Below are positions 3,943 to 35,043 of a stretch of 41,781 bases of DNA, in pieces (position 1 is the stretch's first letter; every line of letters starts with the position of its first letter). The position numbers and the translations under genes were made by a program. Source of the stretch: a virus. The stretch lies in IMG/VR virus record IMGVR_UViG_3300020421_000051, positions 1-41,781 of that record; one strand, written 5' to 3'. Under the pieces are notes generated by a model. The model did no database searches. It was not told the origin of the DNA and saw only the letters and a program-made list of their open reading frames with translations.

Positions 3943-3950
3943 ATAAATAT
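3943..3950 (-). promoter_or_regulatory. AT motif ATATTTAT before gp13
   Basis: Reads CTTATATTTATTATTG on the minus strand, just downstream of the gp23 terminator and about 33 bases before the gp13 start. A new promoter is expected at this point because the terminator closes the previous unit. Confidence 0.45.
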
Positions 3951-3960
3951 AAGATAAACA

Positions 3961-3991: not shown

Positions 3992-4017
3992 AAGTAATAA
4001 GATTAATTGATATTCAA

Positions 4018-16431: not shown

Positions 16432-19400
16432 CTATACGAATTTTAACATTCCCAAAATTTGATTAGCTGGTGCAAATGCTCCTGTGTATTTATAAAGCTT
16501 TCCTTTATAAACAAATGTAATTCCTTCGGATGGTACTACAGCATTCAAGCCACCTAAAGCTTTTAATCTATCTAATTGAACTTTTAATGTATTCAATACT
16601 TTTGGGTCTTTGGATTTTTTAACTTTATTAATTGTAGATATTAAATCTTTTCTAATTTTCTGTGCAGCCTCTGATGGATTAGCTGCTATAAAGTCACTCA
16701 TATTTTTAAGTATCTCAGCACCTAACTCAAAGAATAAAACTTCCCAATCTCTGATATGTTCTTTTTGTAACTTTGCATGATTCATTTTATCCGTACTCAA
16801 TACCCAATCTAAAAATTTAGGATAATCTTTTAAGTCTTTTCTAATTTGTGGTATCTTATATGATTTATCAAAGAATGCCCATCTCTTAGTTAGTTTCATT
16901 AATACTCTATTATCAGGATGTTTATAATCGGTTTGTTTACCACCATTATATATGTATTCCATCCAATACGCTTGATGATAGTCAGCTAAAGTATCGGTAT
17001 CTTTTAACTTATATTCACTTTGTAGTTTTTTCAACTTACCTAAAAAGTAACTCTGTCTTTTACTGAAATCTTTTACCTGTGGTAAATTTGCTACAAAAGG
17101 TTTTGTAATTGTATAAGTCTTCTGTATATCTTGATTAATTTGTTTTATCATACCGGCTAAGACGCGTGCACTTTCTCTATTCTCACCTACAGGTGAACCA
17201 AATTCATCATACTCAATTGTTCCATGAAATTGAAGTAATGATTTATCATAAGGTATGACATTAGATGTAGCAGGATACATGACCTCTAAAGACATAAATC
17301 TCTTACCTTCTCCAAATATCTTATCCTTTTGTTTTTTACTTAGACTTTTTAATGCTTTTGATAAATCATTCATCGCAGTAACAAAAGCTTTTTCAATGTC
17401 ACCTCTACCAGAAAACATATTTTTTATTCCATCAGTATCTAATGCGTTAGCACCAAAATTTTTGATATGTCCTTTGTTTCTGGCAGCGATAAGTTTATCG
17501 TTTTTCCAACTTATCATTATATTTTGTCCATCAGTTTTTTCTGTAACCGGTCCTTCTTTATCAAGTTTACCTTGTAACGTATTAATAATTAGTTTCTTAA
17601 AATCTGAAAACGTAAGTTTTTTATCATCAAATGGATGATTGAGATGTCCGTACGCACCTCCCTCTAAAAGTAATTCTTTTTTCCACCATTCTTTTGAAAA
17701 AGTTTTTTCTTCTAAAAATTCCATATTATCTAAATCTATAGTATCTAAAAAGCTACTGTCGATATCCGCACTCGCACCAGCTGCAAATACACTACCGATA
17801 ATATTATCCATAGCAGCAGATGTACCCATCCAATCTACAATTTGCCATCCTAAAGGTCCTACGACATCATTTAAATGTTTTTTATATTTATTAACGGCTT
17901 TAGTTGAGCCACTTTGCTCACCATGATCCATATAAGTAAGAGGAACTGAATTGTAATGTTTTTGTCCTGGTCTACGTCTTTTATGAATATCATTAGCTTT
18001 AGCTACATTTTCTTCCGGCTTAATAATATTATTCCTTACAACATAATCTACAATTTTCCAACCTTCCTTTTTATAAATACTTTCCAACCATTCCTTTGAT
18101 GTTTTTTCGTATGCATTCAGAGTTTGATAATATGTGGAAGGACCGTCATCAAGATTACCCTTTAAAGAATCACTATACTCAAATAAAAATTCCTTAATTA
18201 AATCATCGGATATATTAATATTTTCAAATAGTTTTTTAAATTTATTTGTCATCATATTATACACACCTTTATCAAAGTATTTGAATGTGCTTTTAAATGT
18301 TCTCTGTCTTTGTTTATCATTATATTTCGGATTACCAAGTAAATCTCTCATCTTTGTACCACTAAGATTACCTTGCTGTGGTGCTGTAAGAATGTATCCA
18401 TGATTATCAAATCCTTCTAACTTATTTTTACTTTTCAAAAAGTCTTGATAGTATGTTTTACTACCATCTTTTTTCTTACCGCCTTTTAATCTACCAGCAT
18501 CCTTCTGACCGAAAGCATATACAACAGCTGTTGTTTCAGGATTAAACTTTTTCAAAAGATTAATCGCTACATATGGTGTTTTTTCCTGTATGATTCTATT
18601 CTTAGGTATACCCATCTTTACCATATGCCTAACCTTCTCTTTAAAATCCATTGGATGTCTTGGTGGCTGTTTAATGTTAGATGTAGTTATATAAGCTTCA
18701 TCCACCTTAGATGCTAACCATTTATATGTTGCTAAATGACCAGGATGAAAAGGTTGAAATCTACCACCGAATACACCGATGGTTTTTTTAATTTCTTTCT
18801 GTTCGTTTACTTTTTTGTAACCACTACCATAAGGTACAGAGGTGTTACCTTTTTTCTTCATCTTCCTTACCATCTTACGACTTGGTGATGGTAATATACC
18901 AGCAGGTGCTCCGAACTCTTCGTTCTTAGCTTTTGTCTTCTTCTTCATCTTATTGATGTATGCTCTATAGACAGCAGCTTGAGAAGCCTTACCCATTTCT
19001 TTAGCTCTTTGTTCCATAGCAACAGCAGCTTGTATCTTATGTGCGTGAGATTTACCACTTCCGTTTATTTTACTGACAGATGCTTTAGCATCTTTTACTG
19101 TAGCAAACTTCAACCCTTTTATTGTTCCCTTTGGATTTTCATCTGTATATAAGTCTGAATGATTTGGTGAATTTCTATGCTGTCCTTTCTTACGAGGTTT
19201 TCGTGCAGCTTCCTTTACCATTCTAAACTTTAGTGCTGGTCTACCATTTATTAGTAAGTCTCCCTTATCATTATAATCAACAGACTTTACTACTACTTTT
19301 TTATTTTTGAACTTACCCATCAAAATAGTATCGCCGATTTCTACAGGTAATTTAATACTTTCAGCCATTTTTACTTTTTTCATCACAGATGGTAAATCCA

Positions 19401-20154
19401 TCTTTTTAATAGATTGTTGTTTTTTAATCCAATCTTTTGCAATTTTATTTTTAGGTGGTTTCTTCAAAAATTTATTTAATCCTTGATTAACTAACATTTT
19501 AAATTTCTTTTCTGCTTCTTTAGCTGAAAGGAATTTATTATTATCGACTATAAGAAAGTTAGAACTTCCAAATAAACCTTGAAAAAATGCAAGATTATTT
19601 TGTACATCCTGCCAACTCTTTCTCACAATAGTTTCCGGTAACGCACGATCTCTTTGTTCATTTCTTTGCATTGCAATATCTAAACTCGTATTTACAAACA
19701 CCATATATGAATCATAACCCAAATCCATTAATTTTTTTCTTTTTTCTTTAACGGATTTAAATTTATGTCCGGTCCCATCTATGATTACACCTAATCTACC
19801 CTCTGTGTATAATCTCAATCTTTCCTGACTTAAACTCTTTGCATAAGTTCTCAAACCACTATAATTATCATATCCAGGATCTGTTAACTGTTTGAATAAA
19901 TCTGCGGGCATATTATCTAAATCAACAGTACCGAAATACTTTTTTAGTAGCATCTCAAGTTCTGTATCTTGGTTTACCATTTTTAAACCTGTTTTCGATA
20001 CATTTATCTTTTCTGGTATACCAAATAGTTGTTGTGCAACATACGATTTACCACTACCAGGTCCTCCTGCCAAAAATACAGCTTTAAAGATACCTGGATC
20101 TCTAACACCTTCGGTTAAAAATGGTTTGACGAGAAATTCTGTTAGTTTATCCAT
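16432..20154 (-). CDS. Multi-enzyme protein: P-loop kinase, HxGH nucleotidyltransferase, KTDG ligase-like domain
   Basis: 1240 residues with at least three catalytic modules. (1) Residues 16-230: P-loop kinase with AGGPGSGKS (29-37), IIDGTG (124-129) and an Arg-rich lid (MQRNEQRDRALPETIVRKSW), like the polynucleotide kinase/zeta-toxin group. (2) Residues 316-450: very basic linker with HAHKIQAAVAMEQRAKEMGK. (3) Residues 456-640: nucleotidyltransferase with GVFGGRFQPFHPGH (HxGH at 470-473) and LSGTKMR (597-603), as in NMN adenylyltransferase or cytidylyltransferase. (4) Residues 655-820: unknown. (5) Residues 832-1240: TEKTDGQNIMISW (KTDG at 873-876), ARNKGH and SLEVMYP (Glu957), the pattern of covalent nucleotidyltransferases (RNA/DNA ligases). 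Sites FLTE-G (15), MVKE-A (315), KVNE-Q (451) and LLLE-G (831) fit prohead protease rules and fall at module borders. Substrates are unknown. Confidence 0.8.
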   Translation of the reverse strand: MDKLTEFLVKPFLTEGVRDPGIFKAVFLAGGPGSGKSYVAQQLFGIPEKINVSKTGLKMVNQDTELEMLLKKYFGTVDLDNMPADLFKQLTDPGYDNYSGLRTYAKSLSQERLRLYTEGRLGVIIDGTGHKFKSVKEKRKKLMDLGYDSYMVFVNTSLDIAMQRNEQRDRALPETIVRKSWQDVQNNLAFFQGLFGSSNFLIVDNNKFLSAKEAEKKFKMLVNQGLNKFLKKPPKNKIAKDWIKKQQSIKKMDLPSVMKKVKMAESIKLPVEIGDTILMGKFKNKKVVVKSVDYNDKGDLLINGRPALKFRMVKEAARKPRKKGQHRNSPNHSDLYTDENPKGTIKGLKFATVKDAKASVSKINGSGKSHAHKIQAAVAMEQRAKEMGKASQAAVYRAYINKMKKKTKAKNEEFGAPAGILPSPSRKMVRKMKKKGNTSVPYGSGYKKVNEQKEIKKTIGVFGGRFQPFHPGHLATYKWLASKVDEAYITTSNIKQPPRHPMDFKEKVRHMVKMGIPKNRIIQEKTPYVAINLLKKFNPETTAVVYAFGQKDAGRLKGGKKKDGSKTYYQDFLKSKNKLEGFDNHGYILTAPQQGNLSGTKMRDLLGNPKYNDKQRQRTFKSTFKYFDKGVYNMMTNKFKKLFENINISDDLIKEFLFEYSDSLKGNLDDGPSTYYQTLNAYEKTSKEWLESIYKKEGWKIVDYVVRNNIIKPEENVAKANDIHKRRRPGQKHYNSVPLTYMDHGEQSGSTKAVNKYKKHLNDVVGPLGWQIVDWMGTSAAMDNIIGSVFAAGASADIDSSFLDTIDLDNMEFLEEKTFSKEWWKKELLLEGGAYGHLNHPFDDKKLTFSDFKKLIINTLQGKLDKEGPVTEKTDGQNIMISWKNDKLIAARNKGHIKNFGANALDTDGIKNMFSGRGDIEKAFVTAMNDLSKALKSLSKKQKDKIFGEGKRFMSLEVMYPATSNVIPYDKSLLQFHGTIEYDEFGSPVGENRESARVLAGMIKQINQDIQKTYTITKPFVANLPQVKDFSKRQSYFLGKLKKLQSEYKLKDTDTLADYHQAYWMEYIYNGGKQTDYKHPDNRVLMKLTKRWAFFDKSYKIPQIRKDLKDYPKFLDWVLSTDKMNHAKLQKEHIRDWEVLFFELGAEILKNMSDFIAANPSEAAQKIRKDLISTINKVKKSKDPKVLNTLKVQLDRLKALGGLNAVVPSEGITFVYKGKLYKYTGAFAPANQILGMLKFV

Positions 20155-20183: not shown

Positions 20184-21788
20184 TCAAATTATTTCCATAT
20201 CCACATCTATAGAATCATAATCAACACTATAGTATCCATCGGATTCTAATATTACACTATCGTTAAATCCTAACTCTAATAAATCTTGTGCCATCACACC
20301 TTTATAAGTAGTGTTTAAATCTTCTTTATAGTTAAATAAATATATTGGTATATTCATATCACTATATCCAATTCTATCAATATTGGTTTTAAGTCTACTA
20401 TCAGAACGACCTTTTGGCGGTCCACCAGGTCCAGGAGGTGGAGGAGGTGGAGGAGGTGGAGCAGATGCTACACAGTTAACAGTCATAGTACGGAAAGCAG
20501 AACCCAATTGGAGTATAACGTTTCTGTTAAAACTTCCAGCTGACATACTACTATCTGCTTCAAACTGAAATATCATAAAAATTGTATCTCCAAAAGCTCC
20601 AGCTAGGGTTACACTATTAGTTGTTCCTTGTACATTGTCTGGTGATGGGTTACTTGTCAAACTAGCATTCCATCTAAAAACACCATTACCGCTATTACCG
20701 GTAACTGTAATTACCGGATCATACTGACCGGTAGTGTTTATTGTATTAAAATTATACTCTGCCTCTAGTACACTAGTACTTGTTCCCGTTGAGGACAATG
20801 GTGGTACAGGAATTAGTTCTGTTATTGTTGGATTGGAAGGAAAGGTAGTAATTGCAGGTAAGTGACTTATCTGTCCACCATTAAAATTTTGTGTATCACT
20901 ATATGAACCGGTATCACCACCAGTACCAACTGCTTGTATCCACCAATACTTTGTATCAAAGTTACTTAAATCATCAAATGTTTGTGATGTACCAGTTACA
21001 CCAGTAAGAGTAGTGGCCGCATTATTTATATCAGTGCTAGTTCCATACTTTATATTATAGGATGAAGCACCACCACCTGGTGCTGCCCAATGAAATCTAC
21101 CCGTAAGTTCTTCTTCTCCAGCGATACCATTAACACCATTATTATCTTGAAGTACAGACGAGGATAGTGATGTTGGAATGCTAGGAGCAGTGTATCCTCT
21201 TAGAGTATTTGAACTAACACCTGAGTTATTACTATTATCCTTACCAAACATCTCTATTAGTATATTTTGATTAGCACTAACAGAAAGAGTAGTTGTAGTA
21301 ATGGGTGGGGTAATAAAAGTATCGCTACCACCACCAACTGTAAAGTCACTATCTCCTGAACCATCTACAGTTTGAAATTTGTTAGGAGCAGTACCAGAAA
21401 AACCATTCACATTTAACGTAGTACCACTTGAACCCGCGTGTTGAGAACCATTTACATCTATAATTGTTACAAAAGTTTTAGTAGAGTTTGAAGCCTCAGT
21501 ATAGTAAAATTTTATCGTAGTGGTTGAAGGTGCAACATATCTCAAATTACTTGGAGAACCAACACCTACTTTATCATGATCGTAACTATACCATTCCGAC
21601 ATAGCGTGTGGAGTACTTTCATCTGGTCTGTTTGCTTCAGCATTAATTACATTTATTGTAGCTACAGTACCATCAGAAAGATTTGATAATGATATGTTTG
21701 TAGCAGAACCACCATCAGCATAATCATTTTCCGTTACTTCATTTGAGATTGCAAGTAAAGATAATGGACCAGTACTAGGAACTGCCAT
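20184..21788 (-). CDS. Fibre-like protein with C-terminal S74 chaperone domain
   Basis: 534 residues. The N-terminus MAVPSTGPLSLLAISNEV and a following DHDKVGVGSPSNL form a short attachment region. Residues about 100-300 contain two fibronectin-III-like beta units (APSIPTSLSS, WAAPGGGASSYNIKYGTST). A further beta domain leads to a proline run of nine followed by GPGGPP near residue 450. The C-terminus begins RSDSRLKTNIDRIGY: Ser462 and Lys467 fit the SD-x-x-x-K self-cleavage dyad of Peptidase_S74 intramolecular chaperones, which trimerise fibres and then cut themselves off. At 73 residues this chaperone is short. Start overlaps the giant fibre gene by 14 bases, so the two are probably made together and may share a tail structure. 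Confidence 0.8.
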   Translation of the reverse strand: MAVPSTGPLSLLAISNEVTENDYADGGSATNISLSNLSDGTVATINVINAEANRPDESTPHAMSEWYSYDHDKVGVGSPSNLRYVAPSTTTIKFYYTEASNSTKTFVTIIDVNGSQHAGSSGTTLNVNGFSGTAPNKFQTVDGSGDSDFTVGGGSDTFITPPITTTTLSVSANQNILIEMFGKDNSNNSGVSSNTLRGYTAPSIPTSLSSSVLQDNNGVNGIAGEEELTGRFHWAAPGGGASSYNIKYGTSTDINNAATTLTGVTGTSQTFDDLSNFDTKYWWIQAVGTGGDTGSYSDTQNFNGGQISHLPAITTFPSNPTITELIPVPPLSSTGTSTSVLEAEYNFNTINTTGQYDPVITVTGNSGNGVFRWNASLTSNPSPDNVQGTTNSVTLAGAFGDTIFMIFQFEADSSMSAGSFNRNVILQLGSAFRTMTVNCVASAPPPPPPPPPGPGGPPKGRSDSRLKTNIDRIGYSDMNIPIYLFNYKEDLNTTYKGVMAQDLLELGFNDSVILESDGYYSVDYDSIDVDMEII

Positions 21789-24700
21789 TTTTCAACTCCT
21801 TTACTTCAGACTTTAAATCTTCTATTTGCTTTTGTTGTTCTTTCATACCCTCAATTAGTAAACCAACCATCTTTTCATACCTTACTCCTTTGTAACCATC
21901 TTCTCTATCTTTTACAACTTCAGGCATTACCTTTTCTATATCTTGTGCAATTACACCAACATCATGTCCTTCATACTCATGTATATCTTCATTTCCTTCT
22001 TTCCAATCAAACTCCACACCTCTGATTTGCTTAACCTTTTCAATTGGATTTTTAATTAATTCTATATTTTCTTTCAACCTTTTATCGGAAGAGTGAAATG
22101 CTGTAACATCACCGGTAGCAGTTAGAGCACCAAAAACATCTACACCAGCAGTATCTACTTGAAATCTTTTTGTACCACTTACAGCTATTTGAATTTTGTA
22201 GGCTGCATCTGAAAATATTCCAGTATCATCTCTTCCATTGCCATGAATTACAGATCCTTGACTACTTATCCCACCATTAAAAATAATAGCAGGAGTTGAT
22301 TCATTATTGTACTGACTACCACCTACACTAATTCTAGATGGAGTAATCATACCATAATCTGCCTGTGAACTATGTCCTCTTGATGATGATAAGAAAGCAC
22401 CTGCAATTGTCATTGCATTAGTACTATTATCACCCAAACCTTCACCTATTATACCATATATCTGGTCACCTTCATCTAAAGCACTAGTGCTACCTTGTGT
22501 TACTGCTGAAAATTTTGCTGTTGAAGTTTTACCAAAGTTTCTTTTGTTATGAACCAATATATTATTTGCAAAGTAGTTTTCGTTTTTAACTACATGAAAG
22601 TTGTAAGTGTGTATTTCATCTGTTACTTTAGTTACGGACTTAATTTTAGTCTCAATACCTTCGGATGTTAAACCTATATCTCCAACTGAAAGCTGTTCTA
22701 CTTCTAGTTTATACTTCTTATATGTTTCTATAGGATCGTAAGAAGCATAACCTTTTCCAACTACCCAATAAGGATTTGTGAATGTGTTATGATTTATTAT
22801 TCCATTTTCAAATTCAATTATAATGGTATAATCATCATCTTCTCCAGTGTGAATAGTATCGTAAGCATATGCCACTTCTTCAGATATAATTTGATTTGAA
22901 ACAACGTCATAAGTTTTTACTAAATCACCCACAACTATATCTTCAATGTTTTTAGTTGAGCCATTAGCCATTAGTATTTGTGTTCCAGCGATAAAACAAT
23001 CAGATTCGACAGGTCGATCAAATGCACTTGATAAAGTTACACCTGCTATAGAACTTAAAGTTGAATTAGAACTATCGGCACCAGTTCCAAGATTAAAGTC
23101 TGTTGTAATCTCAACAAAAGCGTTACTAGCAGTTATAGAGGCAAAACTAGACCCTCCTAGCATATCAAAAGCAGCTTCATTTGCAGCTGCTGGAACTGAG
23201 TTTCTTGCGATAACCATACCAGGTGTAGTACCACCGGTTTGATGTAGTACAAATCTGGAATTAGTACCAGCAATCATTTCTATACCACTACCAGTTATAG
23301 AAGTTGCAGTAAGACCAAATCCACCAATAGCACCAGCACCTGCAGTCACAGTACCTGTCATACTGACATCACCATTTGCAGCAATTGTTACGTTTTGAGT
23401 ATTTGATGTACCAAGTGTTATTGCACCTGATGATATTCTAAGAGCACTTTTATCTGTTGCACTATTTCCAATTATTATACTTGAACCAAAATCTGATACA
23501 ACAACTCCACCTTGCACAACACTAAAACTATCGGCATCCATTTGTACATAATCATCGGAAGCACCACCGTAAACTTTTACACCATTTGAATCTATGTTTA
23601 CATATTCATTGTTACTTGTATTACCAATGGTGGTTGTAGCACCAAAAGCAGCTTGTGTCACACCAGCTGCAACAACATCGACACCATCTGATTTTACATC
23701 CACATAATCATCTACAGCAGCACCATATATTCTAGCACCAGCTCCATGTAAACTTATGTTACCTATCACAGCACTTGGAGTATTTGCTGACGAAGGACCT
23801 GTAGCACCCTTTCCAATATTTATACCATCGCTTGTTATGTGTAATGTTCTTACACTAAAGTCTGAACCACCATAGAGAGAAATTTCATCTGTAAATTTAG
23901 CCGACCTATTACTAGCATGACCTGAATGGATATAGAAACCATCAGATGCTATCTTAACAAAATCTGTATTATTATCAAATACAAAAATACCAGTACTTGG
24001 ATCTATTCGAATAACATCATCGGTAGTACTTACCGATACATCAGCACCTGTAGTACCACCAAGTGCAATTTTACCCGTATTATCTATAGCCACTCTTTTG
24101 TAAGCTGTACCAGATATCTTACCTGAGTACATCGATATCGCAGTAGAGGAAATTTCAGTTCTAGCATCTGCTGCTAAACCAATTCTTGTTGTAGTGCCAT
24201 ATGATGCGAGACTTGTACCAGCACCTGTGTTCAATGACATTCCATCTGATGTCAGCGATACCTGAGTAGACATATTTCCTGATGCTTCTGTTAAACCTGC
24301 GACATCTGATGCAACAGAACCACTCAATGTACTTACATCTGAAGGTGTAGCAAATCCCGTACCGCTTGTTATGGTTATCTGACCTGAAACTGATAGGGAA
24401 TTACCATCCCATACTAATTTATCACCAAGTGAAAATCTTCCACCACTATCCATAAAGAATGGTGTATTACCATCACCATGTGTGCCTGTACCACTAAACA
24501 TTGAACCGGTAGCTAATGTAGTACCACCTATCTTACCACCTTTAAGTAATACAGTAGAACCTGTAATCTGTCCATTGCTTCTTAGTATAAGATTACTATT
24601 TGAACTACTGACGGTAGTAGCACTTATTCCAAATCCACCTATTGCACCAGCAGTAGCTGTAACAGTACCAGTTAGTGTTGCACTGGTTGCAGTCATATTA

Positions 24701-27700
24701 CCGCTTGCATCTAATGAGAAATTACCGGCATTAACTGTAAAATGATTTCCATCAAATTTTATAAATTTAGAAGCATTTCCTACATTAAATTTTGCAACAC
24801 CACCATCCAATCCTAAGAAACCACCTGCAGTATTATCTCCAAAACTTGTCTTTTTAACATATAGTCCTTCTGCATTTCCTGTAGATATTAATGCGACATC
24901 ATTTTTAGAAAACGAAGTTGTTGAAATTGTCCACCCAGCAATTTGATTTGATGCACCTAATGAAACTAACAATTGAGGGGTAGAGTTGTATATTTCTAAA
25001 TTTGTACCGTCAAATTGTAGCCTTTGTGCACCAGCTTTACCAACTCTAAAGTTATTTGTTGCTGCAGATGATAAGAAAAATCCATCACCTGTTGTAAAGT
25101 TTGTTGCACTTCTTATTTGTGGAGTGCCACTATTATTTTCTATAGCAATAGCACCATCACCTAATGTTATAGATTTAGCATTAGAATCAATTACTACATC
25201 TGTAGATTTTTTTATACTATTGGTGGATATTTCCCAACCAGCTGCTGTTAGAGTATTATTGATAAATGAAAAATTTGCACCAACAAAGAATGTTGGAGTA
25301 GCAGAAGCACTTACATAGAATAAATTACTTTGTGCTGTCGCGTGTGTTTGATGAGCATTAGCTCCAAGAGCAATTGTGGCTTGGTTTCCATCTATTCTAG
25401 CAACTGTTCCACTCTTTAACTGACCAGGCACTAACTCCCAACCCGCAAGTTTCGCTTTATTTGCAGTTATCAGTATAGAAGCACTATCTTGACTACCCGA
25501 AACAGTTCCACTTCCACTAAATACAGCAAATCCATATGGAGTTTGGTCAGTTCCATCGTGTAATGGTAATTTACCTAATACTAATTTAGGTTGAGCTTCA
25601 TTTACACTACCAGTCCAAATCGTTAACGATTGTGATATAGAACTTAATCTAACACTACCAAAAGTATTATCACTTTGAATATTACCAGGTACTAAATCCC
25701 ATCCAGCAAGTTTTGCCTTATCTCTTGTTATCAAAACATTATATGTTAAATCATTTGTTATGTCAGCATCAACTGTACCTGTAAACACACCGAAACCATA
25801 TCTGTCATCAGAAGAACTACCATTCACTCTTGGTAACTTTCCAACAACAACCTTTGGTCTTGCATTGTCAATGGAGCCTGTAAAAATCATTAAGGATTGA
25901 CTGTTTGAAGATAATGCTACACTACCATCTTGATTATCTGATTTGATTGCACCTGGCATAATATCCCAACCAGCAATCATATTAGCACCTTCACCTAGTT
26001 CAACTAAACGATTCTCATCGTTAGTCGCAGCACCATCAAATATCTTCAATCCATAAACAGTACCACCATCAACCTCACCTAAGTAAATTCTATCAGCAGT
26101 ACCATCAGTAATCGTAATTCTTTTTGCAGATGCATCTAACGTAATGATTCCCTCTGAACTACTGATTGCAGTATTACCTATACCCCAAGTACCTATGTTA
26201 CCAGTTTTTGCATTTATTGCACCCTCGAGATAAGCAGAACCTGATGCCCATAATCCAAACTGATTCGATAAAGTTCCAAATCTTGGAGATGTGATACCTG
26301 CAAGATTACCCATACGAACAACTGCAGAACCACTTGCGGCATTTACATCAACAAAAGGACTGTTAGGTGATGATGCATCAATTGCAACCGTACCACCACT
26401 AATTCTTGCAGCAGTACCACCAACGTTTAAATTACTTAGATTACCAGCAACATTATCGACATTATATTGTGTAAAACCACTCTGAACTGAACCACCTGTT
26501 ATTGGACTTCCGTTGATTTGAAATCTTACCGCATTTATTGTTCCATTATCTTGTGCGTCTTTGAATAGTAGAATTTGGTCATCACTAAATGTAGCAGACT
26601 TATCATCCTCAAATGTTACTGTACCCGTACCTGTTGTACCGGTTGAGCCTGATATAACACCGCTATCTGAAATAAATAAAATACCATTAGTCGCTTTAAC
26701 AACATCCTTTTGAAAGATATGTGTTCTTAATGTATTTCTAACAACAATATTATCAATTTCTAACAAAGTTCCATCACTACCATTATCATCTATTCTAAAT
26801 CCATCACCGGTTATACCTGATATAAAAGTTGAAGTACCTAAAGTCTTTGTATCTGAAAGAGCAAAGTCTTGATGGGAAGTTGTTATGGTATTACCTAAAG
26901 TTAGTTTATTTGTACCAGCTCTTTGTAATACTAAGTCTTCATCGTATGATGATACTAGTCCGGAATCTACAATTACTTTTTTATTAAAATAGAATTGTGT
27001 CCTATCAGTTTCAATATGTGCATAACTGGTATTTTGTGGTCCTATTTGTATATAGCCGGAATTTGTTTGAATCTTGACGGAATTTCCCCCACCTTCAAGT
27101 ATTCTTGTATTAGAATCAACTAGCCTTACTTCTCCAAATGTTACTGTATCTGTGGTTTCAACATCTTGATTCATTGCGAATAATTCATTTGCACCTTGTC
27201 CAGTATCTACTGTTGCAAATGTTACAGCATCACTAGTCCTAACGTTTTGGTTCATCAGATGAACTTCAGTTGCACCTTGACCAGTATCTACAGTTGTCGA
27301 AGTTAAAGCTGCTGTTTCAAGAGGTGCTGCCGTAATTGTTAAGTTTCCTGTACTAGCACCAGTTGCAGTTGTTGTACCAACTAAAAATCTATCTGCTGAT
27401 TCATCCCATACGAATATAGCATTATCACCAGTTGAACCTCTTTCAATTACTATTCCTGAATCATTTGCGTTTGAACTGGCACCGTTATTTAATTCTATTA
27501 AATTATCAGAAACTACCATATTTGTAGTAGCAACAGTTGTAGTAGTTCCATTTACTGTTAGATCACCTGTTACTGTTAGATCACCTTGAACTGCTGCATC
27601 GTCGTGAACTGTTAAATATGGATTAGTTCCGATAGTAATACTATCTGTACCACCAACACCAATGACTACTGCTGTAGCAGAATCAGTTGCTCTAATTTTA

Positions 27701-30700
27701 GGATTTCCTCCAGTATGAGAATATATCTCTAAATTTTTGTTATCACTTCTATTTTCAACTCTTATTCTAGCATGTTGGTGGGAATCAAGCATGATATTTG
27801 CATCCCAATTTGAATCATTATTTGGTGTACTATCCCCAACATACAAGAAAGGTGCACCTGCAGTTGTACTAAAAACACTTAATAAAGCTACACCGGGATT
27901 TGTGGTCCCGATGCCGACAGTGCCACCAGTAAAATAAGATGTTCCATTACTATGTATTTGTACTTTTCCAACATCTGCCTTTAATAATTGTATATAACCA
28001 TCATCAGCACTACCATTTGCTATTCTAGCAACAGCATTTACATCTCTAACTTCAATACCATCATAATCCGTTGTTGTTTCTACTACGAATTTTTTACCTG
28101 GATTTGTGGTCCCGATACCGACATTAGCAGCATTAGATATAAACATAACATTACTATTCATACCACCTGCATTATTTCCAGTATCAAATGCTAATCCACC
28201 ATTATCAATACCTTGTATTCTTCCTAAAGTTCCACCTGGATTTTGAAACGATATTAAAGCATCTTGTCCATCAGTAGTATTATATAATTTTAATACATCT
28301 TCACTATCATGGTTGAGATATAATCTATAATCACCAGGATTATCTGTTCCGATACCAACCTTGCCGTCTGCCTTAACAATCAATGCACTACTATCTACAG
28401 AAAATGCATCACCAGAACCTGCTTGATTAATTGCAAAAGCGGTATTTCCAGTTGTTGAGGTATGTGTTATTTGAGCTGTTGCAGATATATAAAATGAAGA
28501 AGCACCAGCACCAGTAAATCTAGCTAAATTTCCTGATGTTTTTGTTACAAGTAGGTCTCCATTTACATCTAATTTGTATGTAGGAGTTGATCTTCCGATG
28601 CCAAGATTACCGCTTTCAATCAATCTCATTTTTTCTGCACCACCCAAATCTACTCTGAAATAACCAGCTGCTACATTATTGGCATCAATACTAACTTCTA
28701 AACCAGCATTACCACCACCAAATATTCTATGTTGTAAATTAGAAACATTCGAATCATTTAAAACTATTGCTGGTGACTCATCTGTTATTGTTAGGGCATG
28801 TGGGAACAAATCTGATGTTACACCACCAAGATTAAGTCCAGCAGCAGATACCAACTTTCCAAACGAACCAGTTGATTGAGCTGAACCTGAAAGTATTGTG
28901 CCATCAAATGTAAGGTTAGCTTCAGCATTCATCGCATCTGCACCAGTTGCTGTTAGAACTCTGTTATCTGAACCATTTGTCATAAAGTCTGATACATCTA
29001 CTGATATTGTATTGGTTGACACATCAATACCGCTTCCGGCACCAATGTTAATAGTTCTACTTGATTCTATTGTACCTCCACCAGATAATCCTGATCCTGC
29101 GATAATCTCTACACCGCTATGATCTATGTGTTCATTGGCTACAAACCCACTTAAATTATCATGAACTATTTCAGAGTCAGTCGTTGTTATATTATCAGCA
29201 TTTGCTGTTATTCCTGTACCACCTATAACATTTAGTGTTACATCACCAGAACCACCTCCGGTTAATCCACTTCCAGCTGTAATAGTTTGGTCAGCTGTTG
29301 CGCTCGATTCTATTGCATTAAGCTTTGAATGGTCTGCATCTGTAAAAACATTTGAGTCAGAAGCAGCCTCAACAGCAGCTCTAATTTCTGCATTGCTTTG
29401 GTCAGCAGTAGCACCAGATTCTATTCCATCTAGTTTTGAACCATCGGTAGCTACATCTCTTCCATCCACATTACCTGTAACAGTTATGTTTCCTGCAACA
29501 TCTAAACCAGAACCGACATCTAAGTTAGCAGCAACATTAACACCACCGCCAGTAGCATCGATTGTTATTGGAGAACCACCATATGCTGTAGATTTGATTT
29601 CAAAGACATTACTATTACTGTTGAATATCTGCCACTTTTCTGCTGTACCTGCACCACCACCTAAGAATTCTAAATATTTACCCTTCGGAACTTGTATCCT
29701 ACCAAATGATGCAGTAGTAGTTGAAGAACCACTTACCTTTCCATTAGCGTAGGGAAATTCTACAGGTCCAAAATGAAATATTGCTTTACCACCATTGAAT
29801 TGAGTAAAAAGATGATTTCCACTAGAATCAGTTAATGTAGTATTTTCTGTACTATTAGACCCATCAGAACCTTTAACTTCTAATTTTGCATTTGGAGTTG
29901 TAAGTCCGATGCCAATTTTATCATTTGCACCATCAAGAAAAAATAAGTTTGCGTCATTATTACTTTCCATCCTAACATTTATAACTACACCTTCTTCATT
30001 GAAAGTTATTTCATTTGTGGTGTCTTCAGTAATATCTATAAAATTAACACCACCTGCTTGAATGTTTATATCGTCATTTGTAAAATTAATAAATGTATCG
30101 GTATCACCTATATGAAATATTTTTCTAGTAACACCTAAATCATTTCCATCAAATGTAAGACCACTCTCAGCATTCATCGCATCGGCACCAGTTGCAGTCA
30201 ATACTCTATTATCAACGCCGTTTGATAAAAAGTCTGAGACATCTACGGTATATGTGACTGTATCTGTTGCACTTACTGCAACATCAAGTCCAGTACCAGC
30301 TGCAAAAGTTATAGTATTGGAATCTGCTACCAGTTCTGTAGTTGCACCATCTGAAATATTAAAACTATTCATTGAACCAGCAGAACCCGATAGTATACCA
30401 GCACCTAAATCTCTAATCGCATTTGCAGAAAGTGAACCTGAAATACCTACTCTTGTTAGACTTCTTATCAATGCAGCATTACTACCAAGTGAACCACTTA
30501 TGCCTGTTCTGGTAAGTGTTCTTATAACAGATGCATTTGCCCCTAATGAACCACTTATTCCTGCTCTAGCCAATGTTCTTATAACAGCTGCATTTGAACC
30601 AAGTGAACCACTAATAGTATCTCTGTTTAAACTTCTAATTACATCTGCGTTTGTACCTAATGAACCACTTATAGCTATTCTAGCATTAGAACCAAATAAA

Positions 30701-33700
30701 CCATTGAATGTTGTACCTGTCAATGTCTGCCCTGCTAGTACAGAGTTTACTGTTGAAAATGTTAATCTATGAACGTGATTACCTTTTGCAAACTCACCAA
30801 CATTACCATCAGAAGCAGTTGTACCAATATCTTCAGGATCAGATTGATAAGCTTGTAATGCTGGAGCTCCTAAAGTACCTGCAACTTGACTATCGTTAGT
30901 TGCAGCCTCTCTGTTGATAGCTGTACCAAAGTTTGCTACACCACTACCACCTCTAATTTCTATTCCAGCACCAGTCATCTTTATAAAACTATCTTCAGAG
31001 TTGTAAATTAATAATCCTTCTTGAGTCATCTCAACTCTTCGTGAATTACTTCTCAAAGAGAAATTATCAAAAGTTATTTCAGTTTCAGGATGTTCTGCTG
31101 TTGTACTACCTACAACTTGTTTAGTAAACTTCCTTCCGCTTATATCAGAATTAACAGTTCCTTTGTCTCCAATGAACAATGGCTTTTCTACTGTAAAACC
31201 GGTATCATCATTTATAGATCCCGTAAGAACTACTTTAATAAATTCAGCAGATGATGGTAAATCAGCTGACGCACCAAAACTATTATATTGTCCACTACCT
31301 AAAAAGTATTCACCATAACCATTTGATGCTGTAAAATTAGGATGTGGTAGAAAGGGAACAAAACCATTTGTACCAGAACCACTATATTCTAAACGAAAGT
31401 ATTGTGGTTGTAAAGCTCTATCTTTTCCTCTACCACCAAACGATGAACTAAAACGAGCAACAGAACTAAACGATAAAGTATCTCCTGATGCAATTGACGC
31501 AGTTACAATTTGTGATATCTGATAATTATTGGTTGATGCATAATTAGAAGAACCAGCAGGAACAACAACATCTAATGTTACCCTACCACTTACTGCTTTA
31601 TCATCATCAACAAAAGCATTTCTATCTGTTAAACTAATATTAACCGCACCACCTTCTGAAAACGACCAACTATTTATAGAGCCAACAAAGTTACGACCGG
31701 CTGATAGAGAACCTAGTTGCTCTTCAAAACTTTTATTACCTATATATTGTGTACCACCACCAACTGTTGATAAAGAACCAGATTTGACAAGAACCCTATC
31801 AGTACCACCATTATCTTTGATTTTCAAACCAGGTAAAGCACTACTCAATTCTACTGTGTTGTTCACATCTCTTATTGATGTATTGTTAATATTAAACCCA
31901 CCTAACTTTCCACCTGTGAATAATACTTTAGAACCTGTTATATCACCACTTTGTTTGACATTAAAGTTTGAGGTGCTGATAAACATATGTTTAGAATCAT
32001 CAACACTTCCTTGTAATGGTGAACCACTTATGAAAATGTTATTACTACTGAATGAATGGGAGTCTGTTGTGAATCCACCAATCAAACCCGCAGACGCTGT
32101 TATTGTACCTACGAACTCTGCTCCACTAGCTATAAGGATACCATCTTTATCAACCATAAAGCTTGGGCCCATTTTAATATAATAGTTTGTACCATCAGCA
32201 TCACCACTTCCGCTAGGTGTAAAATCTATATAATATTCATCTCTTTTCTCATCAAACTGTGCGACTGTATCACTACCTGGCCCTTGGTCGGTTTTGAATA
32301 ATTGTGAACGAGGTGCATTGAATGTCATATTAGAACCACTTATCTGTCCGCCAAGTATTTTGAAGTCTCCTATATTACCACCTTCAGCAGTAATGATACC
32401 GCTCATTGTAACATTTCCTTGAGGAGTAAGATGAAAATTAGAAGAACTAATTTCTATCGCACCAGTAGAACCACTTATGAATTGTGTTGATGTTGAACCT
32501 ACAAAAAATGCATCCGCGACAACTTCGAATATAGATGGGTTAGTTCTGAATTTTAAAGAACCACTCGCACCTACCAATTCCAATCCTACACCAGCATAAT
32601 TATCACCACTACTTGGTAAGACAGAACCACTATAAATCATAAATCCAAATTTTCCACCAAGAGATGAATTTGATGCTGATACAAATCCTTGATATCCTAT
32701 GGAACGAATAAAACCAGAACCTTCTGCCCCATCCTGACCAGTTTCAGGTAATACAGAATCGATACCACCAAAATGAATACCACTACCGGTACTGTCTCCA
32801 CCTAAAAACATATCTCCACTTTGTATATTATCGTTACCGCTTATAACAACATTTCCTCCAGTAAATAAAGAGCCTGTATTAAATGCAAGACTGTCTGCAA
32901 TATTATCGTTTGCATCATAAAACTCCACTAAAAATTCAAAGGTATCCGGCCTCTTATGTTGAAACTCCAAAGGCATTTCCTTTTGAAATGTAAATGTTGA
33001 TGGTGAAAATCCCGTATCTTCAGATGGTTTTACCGATATATCAGAAAAATACCAACTACCTTCTATAACTCTAAATTGAACAACTGCGTCTCCTGTATTT
33101 TGAGGTGTAAAATTTTGTACTACTAAACCTAGATCTTTTTCACTTTGGTCATCAACCTCTATTATACCCAATCTATAACCGTAGCTATTATCATCAACCA
33201 AAACTTTATTTGTCGCACTGTCTACAAAAATATCACTATTATGAGAAAAGGATGAGCCAGAAATATAAACTGCTAATAACGAACGTGTATCATTTCCCCT
33301 TTCTGTATATGCATTAAAGGATAATGTAAAATCTATATTTTTTGTTAGTGAAAATTTATAAGCATTCTTTAGACTATACTTGATTTGATTTTCAAAAGTC
33401 GCTACACTACCCGAAACATATACACCATCTAATAATGGAGCATTCGAAAATGTTGATGTTCCACCGGTTGTAGTCCAATAAGTGTTGATGTTTGCTTGAT
33501 TCTCATAATAACCAGTATGTTCTGATAATCCTACTGATAATGGATCAATCATAAGTTCGGATGATTCTACAGGTATTTCTGCTAAAGTTTTAAAATCGTC
33601 AAATGAACCCTCACTTCTAACCATAATTTTAGCTTTAAATATATCACCTGAAAATGTTCTCATATCACTTAATGCAACATCTGCATATGAAATTATATTA

Positions 33701-34785
33701 GCTGTACTGTATGAGGAAGTGGGTTCTGCTTGTTTTATTATTTCAGCTGTACCAAAGAATGGTATTATAACATCTTCATTATTTGTATTCTTATTAGTAA
33801 AAGGTTTTTCTAATAATGCAATTTTGTTATTACGAAGTTCTGCTATAGAACCTGTATAATTACTTAAAGTTGGTGGAAACGGAATATTTGAAGTATCAAA
33901 CTGTTCCCTATCATATGCAGAAGAGTTTATTGTTTTTAATACTACTCTAGCACCAATATCTTTTGTAGTAAATTCATCAGAATTAGTAATTCTAAATGAA
34001 TAGGGATATTCAATAGGTGAACGAGATCTCGCTATATGCCCAATTCTTTTGAATATACTACTTTTTCTTTTACCCTTTTTATTTTTAAATTGATTACCTA
34101 ATTTAAAAATAGAATCCGTTTTATTTTTAGGTTTAGTTTTTTTATCACTTGCTTCGGATAAAGAACCCTGCTTTGGATCTTCTGTTTCAAATACGGTAAA
34201 TTCAAAATTTTGATCTGGTAACCCTTCTATTGAATTAAAAGATGAACTTATCGACGCACTCGTTTCAGTACGAACTAAAGACCCAAATCTCTTTTCAGAT
34301 ACGGATATTTTGGGTTGAGTATAAAATCTTATCGGCTCGGTGTTGATTTCTGTTGGATTAATTATTATTTCTTTAGTTAACCTAACGTTATAAATATTTT
34401 TCCAATCCTCTGGTACTGCTTCTACATCAGAAAATGCACCTTCTGATAAAGGAATCGAATCTAACTCACCAACGATAATCAAATTAGCAACACCAGGTCC
34501 TGTATCGCTATATATTTCTACAGATATTCTTCGTGACGTTCCTTCCAAATAATCTTCAATAGGTTCATAGTAAATAGAATTACCTTCCGAATCTACAAAA
34601 TCTATTTGTAATTCTACACCATCTTTTAAAAATGGTCCTGTTTCTATTAAGAATGAACTTCTACCTTGCGGCAAACTTTCGGGTAAATCAGTTATGACAA
34701 AATGCCTGGACTGATTAAAATCGTCAACCAATATATCGATTTGGTCTAGATTTTTTAGTGGATTAAATTTTTTGACTATGCTCAT
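21775..34785 (-). CDS. Giant fibre-like virion protein with Hint domain and S74 chaperone
   Basis: 4336 residues, about 31% of the window. Residues 1-200 are a non-repetitive N-terminal domain (MSIVKKFNPLKNLDQIDILV), probably the attachment end. The long middle is Gly/Ser/Thr-rich beta fibre with recurring motifs: about eleven degenerate copies of IGGF or LAGW units, four 19-residue repeats (1372-1452), GIGTTNPG turns, SGATADQSNAEIRAAVEAAS coiled segments, and two copies of DNRVLTATGADAMNAE. Residues 3930-4080 are an intein-like Hint domain (CFIAGTQILM to NILVHN). The C-terminus (4232-4336) is a Peptidase_S74 chaperone: SSDKRLKENI with Ser4233 and Lys4238, then HDVGVIAQDIEKVMPEVV and a final coiled coil. 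It likely makes a long tail fibre or tail-associated filament. A copy of the AT motif lies just upstream; no strong Shine-Dalgarno is evident. Confidence 0.85.
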   Translation of the reverse strand: MSIVKKFNPLKNLDQIDILVDDFNQSRHFVITDLPESLPQGRSSFLIETGPFLKDGVELQIDFVDSEGNSIYYEPIEDYLEGTSRRISVEIYSDTGPGVANLIIVGELDSIPLSEGAFSDVEAVPEDWKNIYNVRLTKEIIINPTEINTEPIRFYTQPKISVSEKRFGSLVRTETSASISSSFNSIEGLPDQNFEFTVFETEDPKQGSLSEASDKKTKPKNKTDSIFKLGNQFKNKKGKRKSSIFKRIGHIARSRSPIEYPYSFRITNSDEFTTKDIGARVVLKTINSSAYDREQFDTSNIPFPPTLSNYTGSIAELRNNKIALLEKPFTNKNTNNEDVIIPFFGTAEIIKQAEPTSSYSTANIISYADVALSDMRTFSGDIFKAKIMVRSEGSFDDFKTLAEIPVESSELMIDPLSVGLSEHTGYYENQANINTYWTTTGGTSTFSNAPLLDGVYVSGSVATFENQIKYSLKNAYKFSLTKNIDFTLSFNAYTERGNDTRSLLAVYISGSSFSHNSDIFVDSATNKVLVDDNSYGYRLGIIEVDDQSEKDLGLVVQNFTPQNTGDAVVQFRVIEGSWYFSDISVKPSEDTGFSPSTFTFQKEMPLEFQHKRPDTFEFLVEFYDANDNIADSLAFNTGSLFTGGNVVISGNDNIQSGDMFLGGDSTGSGIHFGGIDSVLPETGQDGAEGSGFIRSIGYQGFVSASNSSLGGKFGFMIYSGSVLPSSGDNYAGVGLELVGASGSLKFRTNPSIFEVVADAFFVGSTSTQFISGSTGAIEISSSNFHLTPQGNVTMSGIITAEGGNIGDFKILGGQISGSNMTFNAPRSQLFKTDQGPGSDTVAQFDEKRDEYYIDFTPSGSGDADGTNYYIKMGPSFMVDKDGILIASGAEFVGTITASAGLIGGFTTDSHSFSSNNIFISGSPLQGSVDDSKHMFISTSNFNVKQSGDITGSKVLFTGGKLGGFNINNTSIRDVNNTVELSSALPGLKIKDNGGTDRVLVKSGSLSTVGGGTQYIGNKSFEEQLGSLSAGRNFVGSINSWSFSEGGAVNISLTDRNAFVDDDKAVSGRVTLDVVVPAGSSNYASTNNYQISQIVTASIASGDTLSFSSVARFSSSFGGRGKDRALQPQYFRLEYSGSGTNGFVPFLPHPNFTASNGYGEYFLGSGQYNSFGASADLPSSAEFIKVVLTGSINDDTGFTVEKPLFIGDKGTVNSDISGRKFTKQVVGSTTAEHPETEITFDNFSLRSNSRRVEMTQEGLLIYNSEDSFIKMTGAGIEIRGGSGVANFGTAINREAATNDSQVAGTLGAPALQAYQSDPEDIGTTASDGNVGEFAKGNHVHRLTFSTVNSVLAGQTLTGTTFNGLFGSNARIAISGSLGTNADVIRSLNRDTISGSLGSNAAVIRTLARAGISGSLGANASVIRTLTRTGISGSLGSNAALIRSLTRVGISGSLSANAIRDLGAGILSGSAGSMNSFNISDGATTELVADSNTITFAAGTGLDVAVSATDTVTYTVDVSDFLSNGVDNRVLTATGADAMNAESGLTFDGNDLGVTRKIFHIGDTDTFINFTNDDINIQAGGVNFIDITEDTTNEITFNEEGVVINVRMESNNDANLFFLDGANDKIGIGLTTPNAKLEVKGSDGSNSTENTTLTDSSGNHLFTQFNGGKAIFHFGPVEFPYANGKVSGSSTTTASFGRIQVPKGKYLEFLGGGAGTAEKWQIFNSNSNVFEIKSTAYGGSPITIDATGGGVNVAANLDVGSGLDVAGNITVTGNVDGRDVATDGSKLDGIESGATADQSNAEIRAAVEAASDSNVFTDADHSKLNAIESSATADQTITAGSGLTGGGSGDVTLNVIGGTGITANADNITTTDSEIVHDNLSGFVANEHIDHSGVEIIAGSGLSGGGTIESSRTINIGAGSGIDVSTNTISVDVSDFMTNGSDNRVLTATGADAMNAEANLTFDGTILSGSAQSTGSFGKLVSAAGLNLGGVTSDLFPHALTITDESPAIVLNDSNVSNLQHRIFGGGNAGLEVSIDANNVAAGYFRVDLGGAEKMRLIESGNLGIGRSTPTYKLDVNGDLLVTKTSGNLARFTGAGASSFYISATAQITHTSTTGNTAFAINQAGSGDAFSVDSSALIVKADGKVGIGTDNPGDYRLYLNHDSEDVLKLYNTTDGQDALISFQNPGGTLGRIQGIDNGGLAFDTGNNAGGMNSNVMFISNAANVGIGTTNPGKKFVVETTTDYDGIEVRDVNAVARIANGSADDGYIQLLKADVGKVQIHSNGTSYFTGGTVGIGTTNPGVALLSVFSTTAGAPFLYVGDSTPNNDSNWDANIMLDSHQHARIRVENRSDNKNLEIYSHTGGNPKIRATDSATAVVIGVGGTDSITIGTNPYLTVHDDAAVQGDLTVTGDLTVNGTTTTVATTNMVVSDNLIELNNGASSNANDSGIVIERGSTGDNAIFVWDESADRFLVGTTTATGASTGNLTITAAPLETAALTSTTVDTGQGATEVHLMNQNVRTSDAVTFATVDTGQGANELFAMNQDVETTDTVTFGEVRLVDSNTRILEGGGNSVKIQTNSGYIQIGPQNTSYAHIETDRTQFYFNKKVIVDSGLVSSYDEDLVLQRAGTNKLTLGNTITTSHQDFALSDTKTLGTSTFISGITGDGFRIDDNGSDGTLLEIDNIVVRNTLRTHIFQKDVVKATNGILFISDSGVISGSTGTTGTGTVTFEDDKSATFSDDQILLFKDAQDNGTINAVRFQINGSPITGGSVQSGFTQYNVDNVAGNLSNLNVGGTAARISGGTVAIDASSPNSPFVDVNAASGSAVVRMGNLAGITSPRFGTLSNQFGLWASGSAYLEGAINAKTGNIGTWGIGNTAISSSEGIITLDASAKRITITDGTADRIYLGEVDGGTVYGLKIFDGAATNDENRLVELGEGANMIAGWDIMPGAIKSDNQDGSVALSSNSQSLMIFTGSIDNARPKVVVGKLPRVNGSSSDDRYGFGVFTGTVDADITNDLTYNVLITRDKAKLAGWDLVPGNIQSDNTFGSVRLSSISQSLTIWTGSVNEAQPKLVLGKLPLHDGTDQTPYGFAVFSGSGTVSGSQDSASILITANKAKLAGWELVPGQLKSGTVARIDGNQATIALGANAHQTHATAQSNLFYVSASATPTFFVGANFSFINNTLTAAGWEISTNSIKKSTDVVIDSNAKSITLGDGAIAIENNSGTPQIRSATNFTTGDGFFLSSAATNNFRVGKAGAQRLQFDGTNLEIYNSTPQLLVSLGASNQIAGWTISTTSFSKNDVALISTGNAEGLYVKKTSFGDNTAGGFLGLDGGVAKFNVGNASKFIKFDGNHFTVNAGNFSLDASGNMTATSATLTGTVTATAGAIGGFGISATTVSSSNSNLILRSNGQITGSTVLLKGGKIGGTTLATGSMFSGTGTHGDGNTPFFMDSGGRFSLGDKLVWDGNSLSVSGQITITSGTGFATPSDVSTLSGSVASDVAGLTEASGNMSTQVSLTSDGMSLNTGAGTSLASYGTTTRIGLAADARTEISSTAISMYSGKISGTAYKRVAIDNTGKIALGGTTGADVSVSTTDDVIRIDPSTGIFVFDNNTDFVKIASDGFYIHSGHASNRSAKFTDEISLYGGSDFSVRTLHITSDGINIGKGATGPSSANTPSAVIGNISLHGAGARIYGAAVDDYVDVKSDGVDVVAAGVTQAAFGATTTIGNTSNNEYVNIDSNGVKVYGGASDDYVQMDADSFSVVQGGVVVSDFGSSIIIGNSATDKSALRISSGAITLGTSNTQNVTIAANGDVSMTGTVTAGAGAIGGFGLTATSITGSGIEMIAGTNSRFVLHQTGGTTPGMVIARNSVPAAANEAAFDMLGGSSFASITASNAFVEITTDFNLGTGADSSNSTLSSIAGVTLSSAFDRPVESDCFIAGTQILMANGSTKNIEDIVVGDLVKTYDVVSNQIISEEVAYAYDTIHTGEDDDYTIIIEFENGIINHNTFTNPYWVVGKGYASYDPIETYKKYKLEVEQLSVGDIGLTSEGIETKIKSVTKVTDEIHTYNFHVVKNENYFANNILVHNKRNFGKTSTAKFSAVTQGSTSALDEGDQIYGIIGEGLGDNSTNAMTIAGAFLSSSRGHSSQADYGMITPSRISVGGSQYNNESTPAIIFNGGISSQGSVIHGNGRDDTGIFSDAAYKIQIAVSGTKRFQVDTAGVDVFGALTATGDVTAFHSSDKRLKENIELIKNPIEKVKQIRGVEFDWKEGNEDIHEYEGHDVGVIAQDIEKVMPEVVKDREDGYKGVRYEKMVGLLIEGMKEQQKQIEDLKSEVKELKNGSS
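21778..22092 (-). other. Peptidase_S74 intramolecular chaperone domain of the giant protein
   Basis: About 105 C-terminal residues. Ser4233 and Lys4238 in SSDKRLKENI match the self-cleaving serine-lysine pair, and GVIAQDIEKVMPEVV matches the conserved helix of the family. Cleavage would release this part after the trimer has folded. Confidence 0.8.
22546..22998 (-). other. Hint (intein-like, probably BIL-type) domain inside the giant protein
   Basis: 151 residues, 3930-4080. It starts with Cys in SDCFIAGTQILMANGSTKNI, the block A form of Hint domains; has NHNTFTNPYWVVGKG in the block B position (here with NTF-N-P in place of a TxxH); and ends ENYFANNILVHN, the block F/G form with the terminal His-Asn. 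The residue after Asn is Lys, not Cys, Ser or Thr, so normal intein splicing lacks its acceptor. Bacterial intein-like (BIL) domains have this feature and can cleave, or splice by other routes. No homing endonuclease is inserted. It sits about 150 residues before the S74 chaperone. Confidence 0.82.
25247..25977 (-). repeat. Three tandem AGW-type units in the giant protein
   Basis: Units begin at 25977 (IAGWDIMPGAIKSDN), 25710 (LAGWDLVPGNIQSDN) and 25449 (LAGWELVPGQLKSGT), spaced 267 and 261 bases (89 and 87 residues). The first two are closely similar along their length, including GSVxLSSxSQSL and the PK-V-GKLP segment; the third diverges in its second half. They are recent-looking duplications within a longer degenerate series. 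Confidence 0.8.
30430..30672 (-). repeat. 57-base tandem repeat (19 residues, 4 units plus a partial)
   Basis: Conserved ISGSL starts recur exactly every 57 bases (plus-strand positions 30659, 30602, 30545, 30488, 30431). The unit reads like ISGSLGSNAAVIRTLARAG and keeps the reading frame. The fifth copy breaks off as ISGSLSANAIRDLG. Confidence 0.9.
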
Positions 34786-34869: not shown

Positions 34870-35043
34870 ATGAAGAAGAAATATTCTTTTACTATAGAAG
34901 AAAGCCTAGTAGACTGGTTTAGAGTCTATGTTAGAGAAGAAAGCACTACCATGTCTGGTGTACTTAACCAGTATATATTGAGTCTAAAAAGAGGAGAAAC
35001 TAAGCCTAGAAAAGTATTATACTCTAACCGTACACAACGTTAG
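34870..35043 (+). CDS. Small ribbon-helix-helix-like protein, only plus-strand gene
   Basis: 57 residues from ATG at 34870, chosen over an upstream in-frame ATG at 34786 because GGAG lies 9 bases before it and the extra 28 residues would be an unlikely Ile/Phe-rich leader. The sequence KKKYSFTIEESLVDWFRVYV and STTMSGVLNQYILSLKRGE fits a ribbon-helix-helix (Arc/MetJ-type) DNA-binding fold: a short strand with alternating residues, helix A, a turn and helix B. Such proteins dimerise and bind operators. It is transcribed against all other genes here, starts in the gap before the giant fibre gene, and its end overlaps the 3' end of the SbcDC-fusion gene by 20 bases. It could regulate the replication-to-late switch; that is inference. 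Confidence 0.65.
   Translation: MKKKYSFTIEESLVDWFRVYVREESTTMSGVLNQYILSLKRGETKPRKVLYSNRTQR

Follow-up and report, generated by a model that had tools for sequence, protein, structure and literature searches.

Hint domains, bacterial intein-like (BIL) domains, phage inteins and fibres with an S74 domain have each been described before. A-type BILs without a nucleophile at +1, the residue following the domain, are thought to splice by a route in which the amine freed by Asn cyclisation attacks the Cys1 thioester (PMC4031507), and BIL2 of the BUBL1 protein was described to form an isopeptide bond between its N-terminal partner and a lysine (PMC8616854). For class 1 inteins, an Asp in block F is described as an assisting residue, and departures from the usual motifs are on record: the block B His and other helper residues are replaced in several working inteins and some true inteins lack the block B T-x-x-H motif (PMC7664689), and in one intein a bulky residue at −1 can substitute for the block B His (PMC6333167). 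In the T5 fibre, an S74-type chaperone was shown to release itself by a cut at a Ser that is followed by a Lys five positions later (PMC4690869).

A Hint domain within a phage fibre

The virus record IMGVR_UViG_3300020421_000051 (IMG/VR) is a single linear molecule of 41,781 bases, which was analysed at its full length and is termed the window. Matches of its genes to terminase, portal, major head protein and sheath stabiliser indicate that the virus is a tailed phage, probably a contractile one. Its fibre ORF carries a Hint domain followed by a Peptidase_S74 chaperone (Table 1), with Pfam reporting AXH, Hom_end_hint and Intein_splicing over the Hint. A second contig (L001) repeats the window sequence at 99.985% over 6453 bases, so that the Hint region is no assembly accident of one record. 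Further minus-strand ORFs of the window comprise one of 1240 residues with AAA_33 kinase-like and cytidylyltransferase-like domains adjoining the fibre genes (16432–20154), a second ORF with an S74-like carboxy-terminus behind a poly-proline linker and without a Hint (20184–21788), and one of 1051 residues in which an SMC/Rad50-type ATPase comes after a calcineurin-like phosphoesterase, resembling a fused SbcD–SbcC (35024–38179).

Table 1 Features of the fibre ORF in the window (all residues numbered in the ORF).
Feature	Position	Strand	Basis or remark
Fibre ORF with Hint and S74 domains	21775..34785	(-)	4336 aa; Pfam
Hint domain, residues 3930–4080 (Cys1 to Asn151), 151 aa	22546..22998	(-)	HMM, AlphaFold2, structure match
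Asp3929 at −1	22999..23001	(-)	Asp also in L002, L003, L050
Cys3930, predicted N-S acyl shift nucleophile	22996..22998	(-)	Cys1 invariant in alignment A3, the rows of which had been selected for Cys1
Block B T4001-x-x-N4004 (reads T-F-T-N; usual T-x-x-H)	22774..22785	(-)	Alignment
Block F position 4, Asn4062 (inteins: Asp most common)	22600..22602	(-)	Alignment
His4079-Asn4080, predicted C-terminal cleavage by Asn cyclisation	22546..22551	(-)	Kept residues
Lys4081 at +1, conserved family signature	22543..22545	(-)	Cluster counts, tree
Variable segment 4081–4228 between Hint and S74 (probable tip)	22102..22545	(-)	Omega 1.06 vs L002
Peptidase_S74 chaperone, residues 4233–4292, Ser4233 and Lys4238	21910..22089	(-)	Pfam E 1.1e-16, 61.3 bits vs cut-off 22

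An initial annotation of this DNA had delineated a complete 151-residue Hint domain from Cys3930 to a VHN end at Asn4080 with Lys at +1, all of which proved exact. Scored with an HMM built from 36 other Hints, leaving out the window domain and its near copy L002, the ORF reached 153.9 bits (E 2.4e-46), whereas 1000 shuffles of the Hint domain yielded at most 9.9 bits with the same HMM, indicating that the match is not due to chance. No other window ORF was present among the best five matches listed when 126 six-frame ORFs were searched. AlphaFold2 prediction of residues 3921–4090 with 34 relatives resulted in a mean pLDDT of 90.3 and a pTM of 0.85, and the best-matching solved fold was BIL2 of Tetrahymena BUBL1 (Z 23.9, rmsd 1.7 over 150 residues, 25% identity), followed by the C. 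thermocellum BIL (Z 20.8) and then the DnaB and gp41-1 inteins (Z about 20). Foldseek returned the same leading structures, BIL2 and the C. thermocellum BIL, and a profile search of solved sequences again placed these two on top (BIL2 E 1.4e-25). Judged by model and structure match, the domain belongs to the HINT superfamily, and the Hint-like fold on which the initial annotation had made its claim depend was borne out by the prediction. Modelling of the larger region 3881–4336 from two sequences (pLDDT 30) gave no usable model of the Hint in context.

The Pfam family AXH, the Ataxin-1 module, matches the window Hint as well as the Hints of alignments A1 and A5 well above its cut-off, and the Hint profile retrieved Ataxin-1 AXH chains at E 2e-13. 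From these profile matches, AXH would seem to be distantly related to HINT; a full-text literature search found no text on an AXH–HINT kinship.

Cys1, the penultimate His and the terminal Asn are all retained in the window Hint, which ends in VHN. The Asn in block B is present in five of 45 cluster representatives of the family described below (L002, which represents the window's cluster, L067, L078, L050 and L091), and position 13 of block F is Glu4069, replacing His.

The S74 match lies above its Pfam cut-off and contains the Ser/Lys pair, from which self-cleavage is predicted, and it starts 153 residues beyond Asn4080, in agreement with the earlier placement of the Hint in a virion fibre with an S74 chaperone about 150 residues later. 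As Ser4233 and Lys4238 match the T5 pattern, the mature tip is predicted to comprise residues 4081–4232, and the segment between Hint and S74 is probably the receptor-binding tip. We compared the window with its relative L002 (87% DNA identity) and obtained Nei–Gojobori omega values, which rest on this one virus pair, of 0.48 upstream of the Hint, 0.14 for the Hint, 1.06 for residues 4081–4228 and 0.05 for the S74, with a dS of 0.15 to 0.27 throughout the compared regions. Amino-acid differences amounted to 7/151 in the Hint and 34/148 in the next segment (p 3e-6). Together, the omega values and residue counts indicate selective constraint on the Hint and rapid change in the stretch that separates it from the S74. 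The two domains are not a standing pair, since the best 80 of 217 nearest-S74 loci have a Hint within the same ORF only in the window virus's copy and L002, and a scan for HN-K directly before an S74 yielded one contig, already in the set.

Lysine at +1 and the carriers of related Hints

Scans of viral contigs together with the HMM, in which the A1 scan took the best 80 of 440 relatives, resulted in 102 distinct near-full Hints forming 45 clusters at 60% identity, and 37 of these were counted after leaving out eight without Cys1 or HN. In the 37 clusters, all from uncultivated viruses, the +1 residue is Lys in 24, Arg in five, Ser in four, and Ala, Leu, Phe and Tyr in one each, at a background of 5.7% Lys among the residues of the carriers; as the clusters are related to one another, the binomial significance of this excess is overstated. 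No residue exceeds 7/30 at the +2 position. The initial annotation had regarded the domain as one without a splicing acceptor, which is probably the wrong picture, as the lysine conserved as a family signature may itself be the acceptor. In a tree of 60 Hints, which included intein and cellular controls (the cellular rows being a hand-picked subset), Lys or Arg at +1 needs nine changes versus 19.6 in shuffles. Read from this tree, Lys or Arg at +1 is neither confined to a single recent clade nor randomly scattered, and holds in deep branches. In a sample independent of Hint likeness, the best 80 of 217 nearest-S74 loci, 12 of the 13 Hints in neighbouring ORFs read HN/K, with 11 of these 12 belonging to one protein family; three of them were also inspected as complete proteins. 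The Asp at position 4 of block F was found in 3/4 clusters with Cys, Ser or Thr at +1 versus 0/33 others (p 5e-4), an association depending on four clusters, and its absence outside the former fits a different chemistry.

The controls comprised phage and cellular sequences. Hints examined from sequenced phages have Cys or Thr at +1 in 4/5 and Ala in 1/5, and tblastn against cultured phages with four Hint-bearing queries and one virion protein retrieved mainly inteins, with Lys+1 in 0/10 records examined. For cellular genome contigs, a first scan for Hint relatives yielded nothing and a second 55 loci, with Lys+1 in 4/40 HN-ended Hints, a count that excludes two viral Hints of L133. A full-text search of the open-licence literature turned up no paper describing phage tail proteins that contain a Hint with Lys at +1.

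Seven of the 37 clusters terminate exactly at HNK, and many relatives end there or a few residues on. At least two Hints are present in 13 of the 65 ORFs with family Hints and at least three in five, with junctions such as HN/RACF and HN/KFCF. Tandem arrays of two to four Hints, separated by linkers of one to three residues (HN/KCF, HN/RACF), were observed in L080, L098, L100, L087 and L092, and several arrays of this group stop exactly at HNK. Separately, L067, L078 and their relatives carry Hints in large viral-contig ORFs with Ser or Thr at +1 and the Asp in block F, and share with the window the Asn in block B; by these residues they are possibly true splicing inteins of virion-like proteins. 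Very large bacterial ORFs from candidate phyla and others (L146, L153, L155, L158, L162, L173) contain a Hint ending in VHN/QKG, NKG or DKG.

Ten Hint carriers were scanned for family matches, identifying a gpJ-like carrier (L126; phrog_31, E 1e-81), an L-type tail protein (L088; phrog_2048, E 1.7e-46) and a carrier with two Hints and an S74 beginning one residue after HN (L093; VVHN/KSDARLK), the S74 match of 20.7 bits being just under the Pfam cut-off of 22. Most of the remaining scanned carriers matched only Hint-containing or unknown families. From their nearest cultured relatives, which are SAR11, Roseobacter, Vibrio and Synechococcus phages, the carriers appear to be aquatic.

Among the best 80 of 598 gpJ-like loci, five contain a full Hint, with Lys at +1 in 5/5, and 67 lack the Hint and are complete at the 5′ end, 22 of them with a long amino-terminus; four weak partial matches were not scored as Hints, and the count leaves out four Hint-free ORFs that run open at the 5′ end. 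With the Hint removed, the flanks of the gpJ-like carriers align end to end with Hint-free homologues (16 of 22 collected rows aligned), the junction reading ...GIKSFIF/KGWNPISAVISFF compared to ...GIKSFFSIG-SFFSAAVSFF in the Hint-free protein. On the basis of this alignment, gpJ-like carriers show an intein-like empty site for a Lys+1 Hint, and because Hint-free homologues span both flanks, removal with ligation would restore a normal protein. An interpretation of the gpJ Hint as an amino-terminal add-on, derived from comparison with cultured SAR11 phages, was dropped since the Hint-free homologues with a long amino-terminus are colinear with both flanks. For the L-type protein, in which the Hint lies behind a tract of 6 to 9 Gly and beyond the end point of the cultured SAR11 phage protein, a terminal add-on still holds. 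The fibre itself yielded no empty site: besides the window virus's copy and L002, its flanks gave a match to a single 29-residue motif, and the 200 residues upstream of the fibre Hint had no match in 50,697 phage records.

Two observations concern genes in cultured phages. In the SAR11 phages HTVC111P, HTVC026P and HTVC112P (L277 1052–1459, L278 1016–1429, L279 1085–1471), the gpJ-like gene is immediately preceded by one with the annotation lysine- or RTX-acyltransferase. Tail proteins of the jumbo phages Erwinia phage pEa_SNUABM_33 and Dickeya phage AD1 (L271 2017–3456, L272 1915–3354) contain a Hint 10 residues from the carboxy-terminus with Thr at +1, and the Dickeya protein additionally has Gly-X-Y-like repeats.

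Proposed working and alternative explanations

The recurrence of Lys at +1 throughout the family suggests that the Hint cuts, and possibly re-joins, its host proteins by an unusual chemistry. Our tentative preference, held at somewhat less than even confidence, is that the Hint is active, belongs to a Lys+1 subfamily of A-type BIL modules and brings about its own excision, the Lys4081 amine serving as acceptor, a route that fits the conserved lysine, the gpJ empty site and the loss of the block F Asp. Building on the modelled fold, the retained nucleophiles, the low omega of the Hint, the conserved lysine at +1 and the empty site of one related carrier, we infer a reactive domain, the order of its steps and re-joining, instead of plain cleavage, as the main outcome. 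Upon folding, the acyl group of Asp3929 would be transferred to Cys3930 to give a thioester, and cyclisation of Asn4080 would free Lys4081, an amine of which (either the alpha amine, in the manner of A-type BILs, or that of the side chain) would then attack the thioester. The Hint would depart leaving the shaft re-joined to the tip segment, and the S74 chaperone of the tip would cut itself off at about S4232/S4233.

The initial annotation had assigned the domain to Hints with a non-canonical +1 residue, of the BIL kind that cleave themselves or make new bonds, with which our analysis agrees. Its statement that standard splicing cannot finish stands for the class 1 route and falls short for A-type BILs, which can splice via the free amine (PMC4031507). 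It overlooked Asn4004 in block B, Asn4062 and Glu4069 in block F, and Asp3929 at −1.

Self-excision with re-joining is opposed by the block B Asn, the Glu at position 13 of block F and the lack of a matched empty site in the fibre itself, as well as by the clusters ending at HNK, which have almost nothing left to join. Its main rival, which is near the view of the initial annotation and which we consider rather doubtful, is maturation by cleavage only, where the Hint would cut at D3929/C3930 and/or N4080/K4081 without re-joining, the pieces being held by the trimer or the tip being released. BILs are described to yield mostly cleavage products, the canonical +1 nucleophile and the block F Asp are missing here, and Asp at −1, which promotes premature N-terminal cleavage in many inteins (PMC11842431), is shared by the window and L002 although the preceding residues differ. 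Cleavage only would, however, leave the conservation of Lys at +1 in 24/37 clusters unexplained, and in gpJ-like carriers it would sever a conserved amino-terminal segment and leave the empty site without explanation.

Replacement of both the block B His and the block F His, together with the confinement of the Hint to two contigs among the best 80 nearest-S74 loci, could also reflect an inert domain, a former self-processing element whose fold now serves the fibre in a structural or adhesive role, which appears unlikely. A Hint-related module without known self-processing may exist in the profile-related AXH of Ataxin-1, which is not known to be catalytic. In contrast, the residues carrying the bonds are all retained, the domain evolves slowly beside a fast segment, and several lineages whose Hint ends are intact have the block B Asn as well, which argues against simple decay.

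We regard as quite improbable that Lys+1 Hints are a further class of splicing element, in which the acyl group passes from the Cys1 thioester directly to the side-chain amine of the lysine and Asn cyclisation then frees the Hint, leaving the parts linked through an isopeptide bond and the alpha amine free. Isopeptide bonds would then branch or cap fibres and tail-tip proteins, and HN/K arrays ending in HNK would leave proteins with lysines added via their side chains. Least probable is intermolecular conjugation, in which the Cys1 thioester would pass the shaft carboxy-terminus to a lysine of another protein (a neighbouring chain, the virion or the host): the nearest fold and profile belong to a domain conjugating with ubiquitin-like domains and the Gly(6–9) tail that replaces the normal carboxy-terminus before the L-type Hint would be a good acyl donor, but the fibre has Asp instead of Gly at −1, a candidate target is lacking and retention of Asn4080 would be needless.

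Returning to self-excision with the Lys4081 amine as acceptor, an active domain would mean that mature phage tail fibres and tail-tip proteins contain self-splicing or self-conjugating domains beside the host-recognition tip, and it would represent a natural Lys-accepting ligation domain. The positive function of Hints without a +1 nucleophile becomes directly testable, as the conserved lysine predicts one product and the gpJ-like empty site predicts the sequence of the spliced protein.

Comparison with described systems

Phage class 1 inteins (UvsX, helicase, TerL), the nearest Hints in sequenced phages, have the fold, Cys1, the penultimate His and the Asn in common with the window Hint. They keep Cys or Thr at +1 in four of the five examined, whereas the window Hint has neither a +1 Cys, Ser or Thr nor the T-x-x-H of block B, and no homing endonuclease. 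The PT-HINT of polymorphic toxins is a related profile, matching 9/11 members of alignment A1, and there are cellular relatives with Ser, Ala or Cys at +1, but in the window it stays below the Pfam cut-off (15.4 versus 27.7 bits), and the Hint is followed by the S74 chaperone and not by a toxin. Among the S74 intramolecular chaperones described for T5 pb1 and endosialidase, the pb1 pair Ser1264/Lys1269 corresponds in place and spacing to Ser4233/Lys4238 of the window, and the description of pb1 as available makes no mention of a Hint.

BIL2 of Tetrahymena thermophila BUBL1 (PDB ID: 6Y75, 6TMM) is the best match to the window Hint in both fold and profile. It lies between ubiquitin-like domains of a ciliate protein and keeps the catalytic His69, whereas the window Hint is located in a phage fibre with Asn in block B, and a Pfam search of the fibre ORF (E 0.01) found no ubiquitin-like domain beside it. 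Hint ends without HN were seen in Bacteroidales, and B-type BILs are defined by the lack of an intein-like block G, while the window Hint ends in VHN. With this intein-like HN end and no nucleophile at +1, the window Hint would by its sequence be placed among the A-type BILs, sharing the HINT fold, the HN end and the absence of Cys, Ser or Thr at +1 with the C. thermocellum domain (PDB ID: 2LWY), and differing from it in that the viral clusters mostly have Lys at +1 and the known carriers here are tail or virion proteins.
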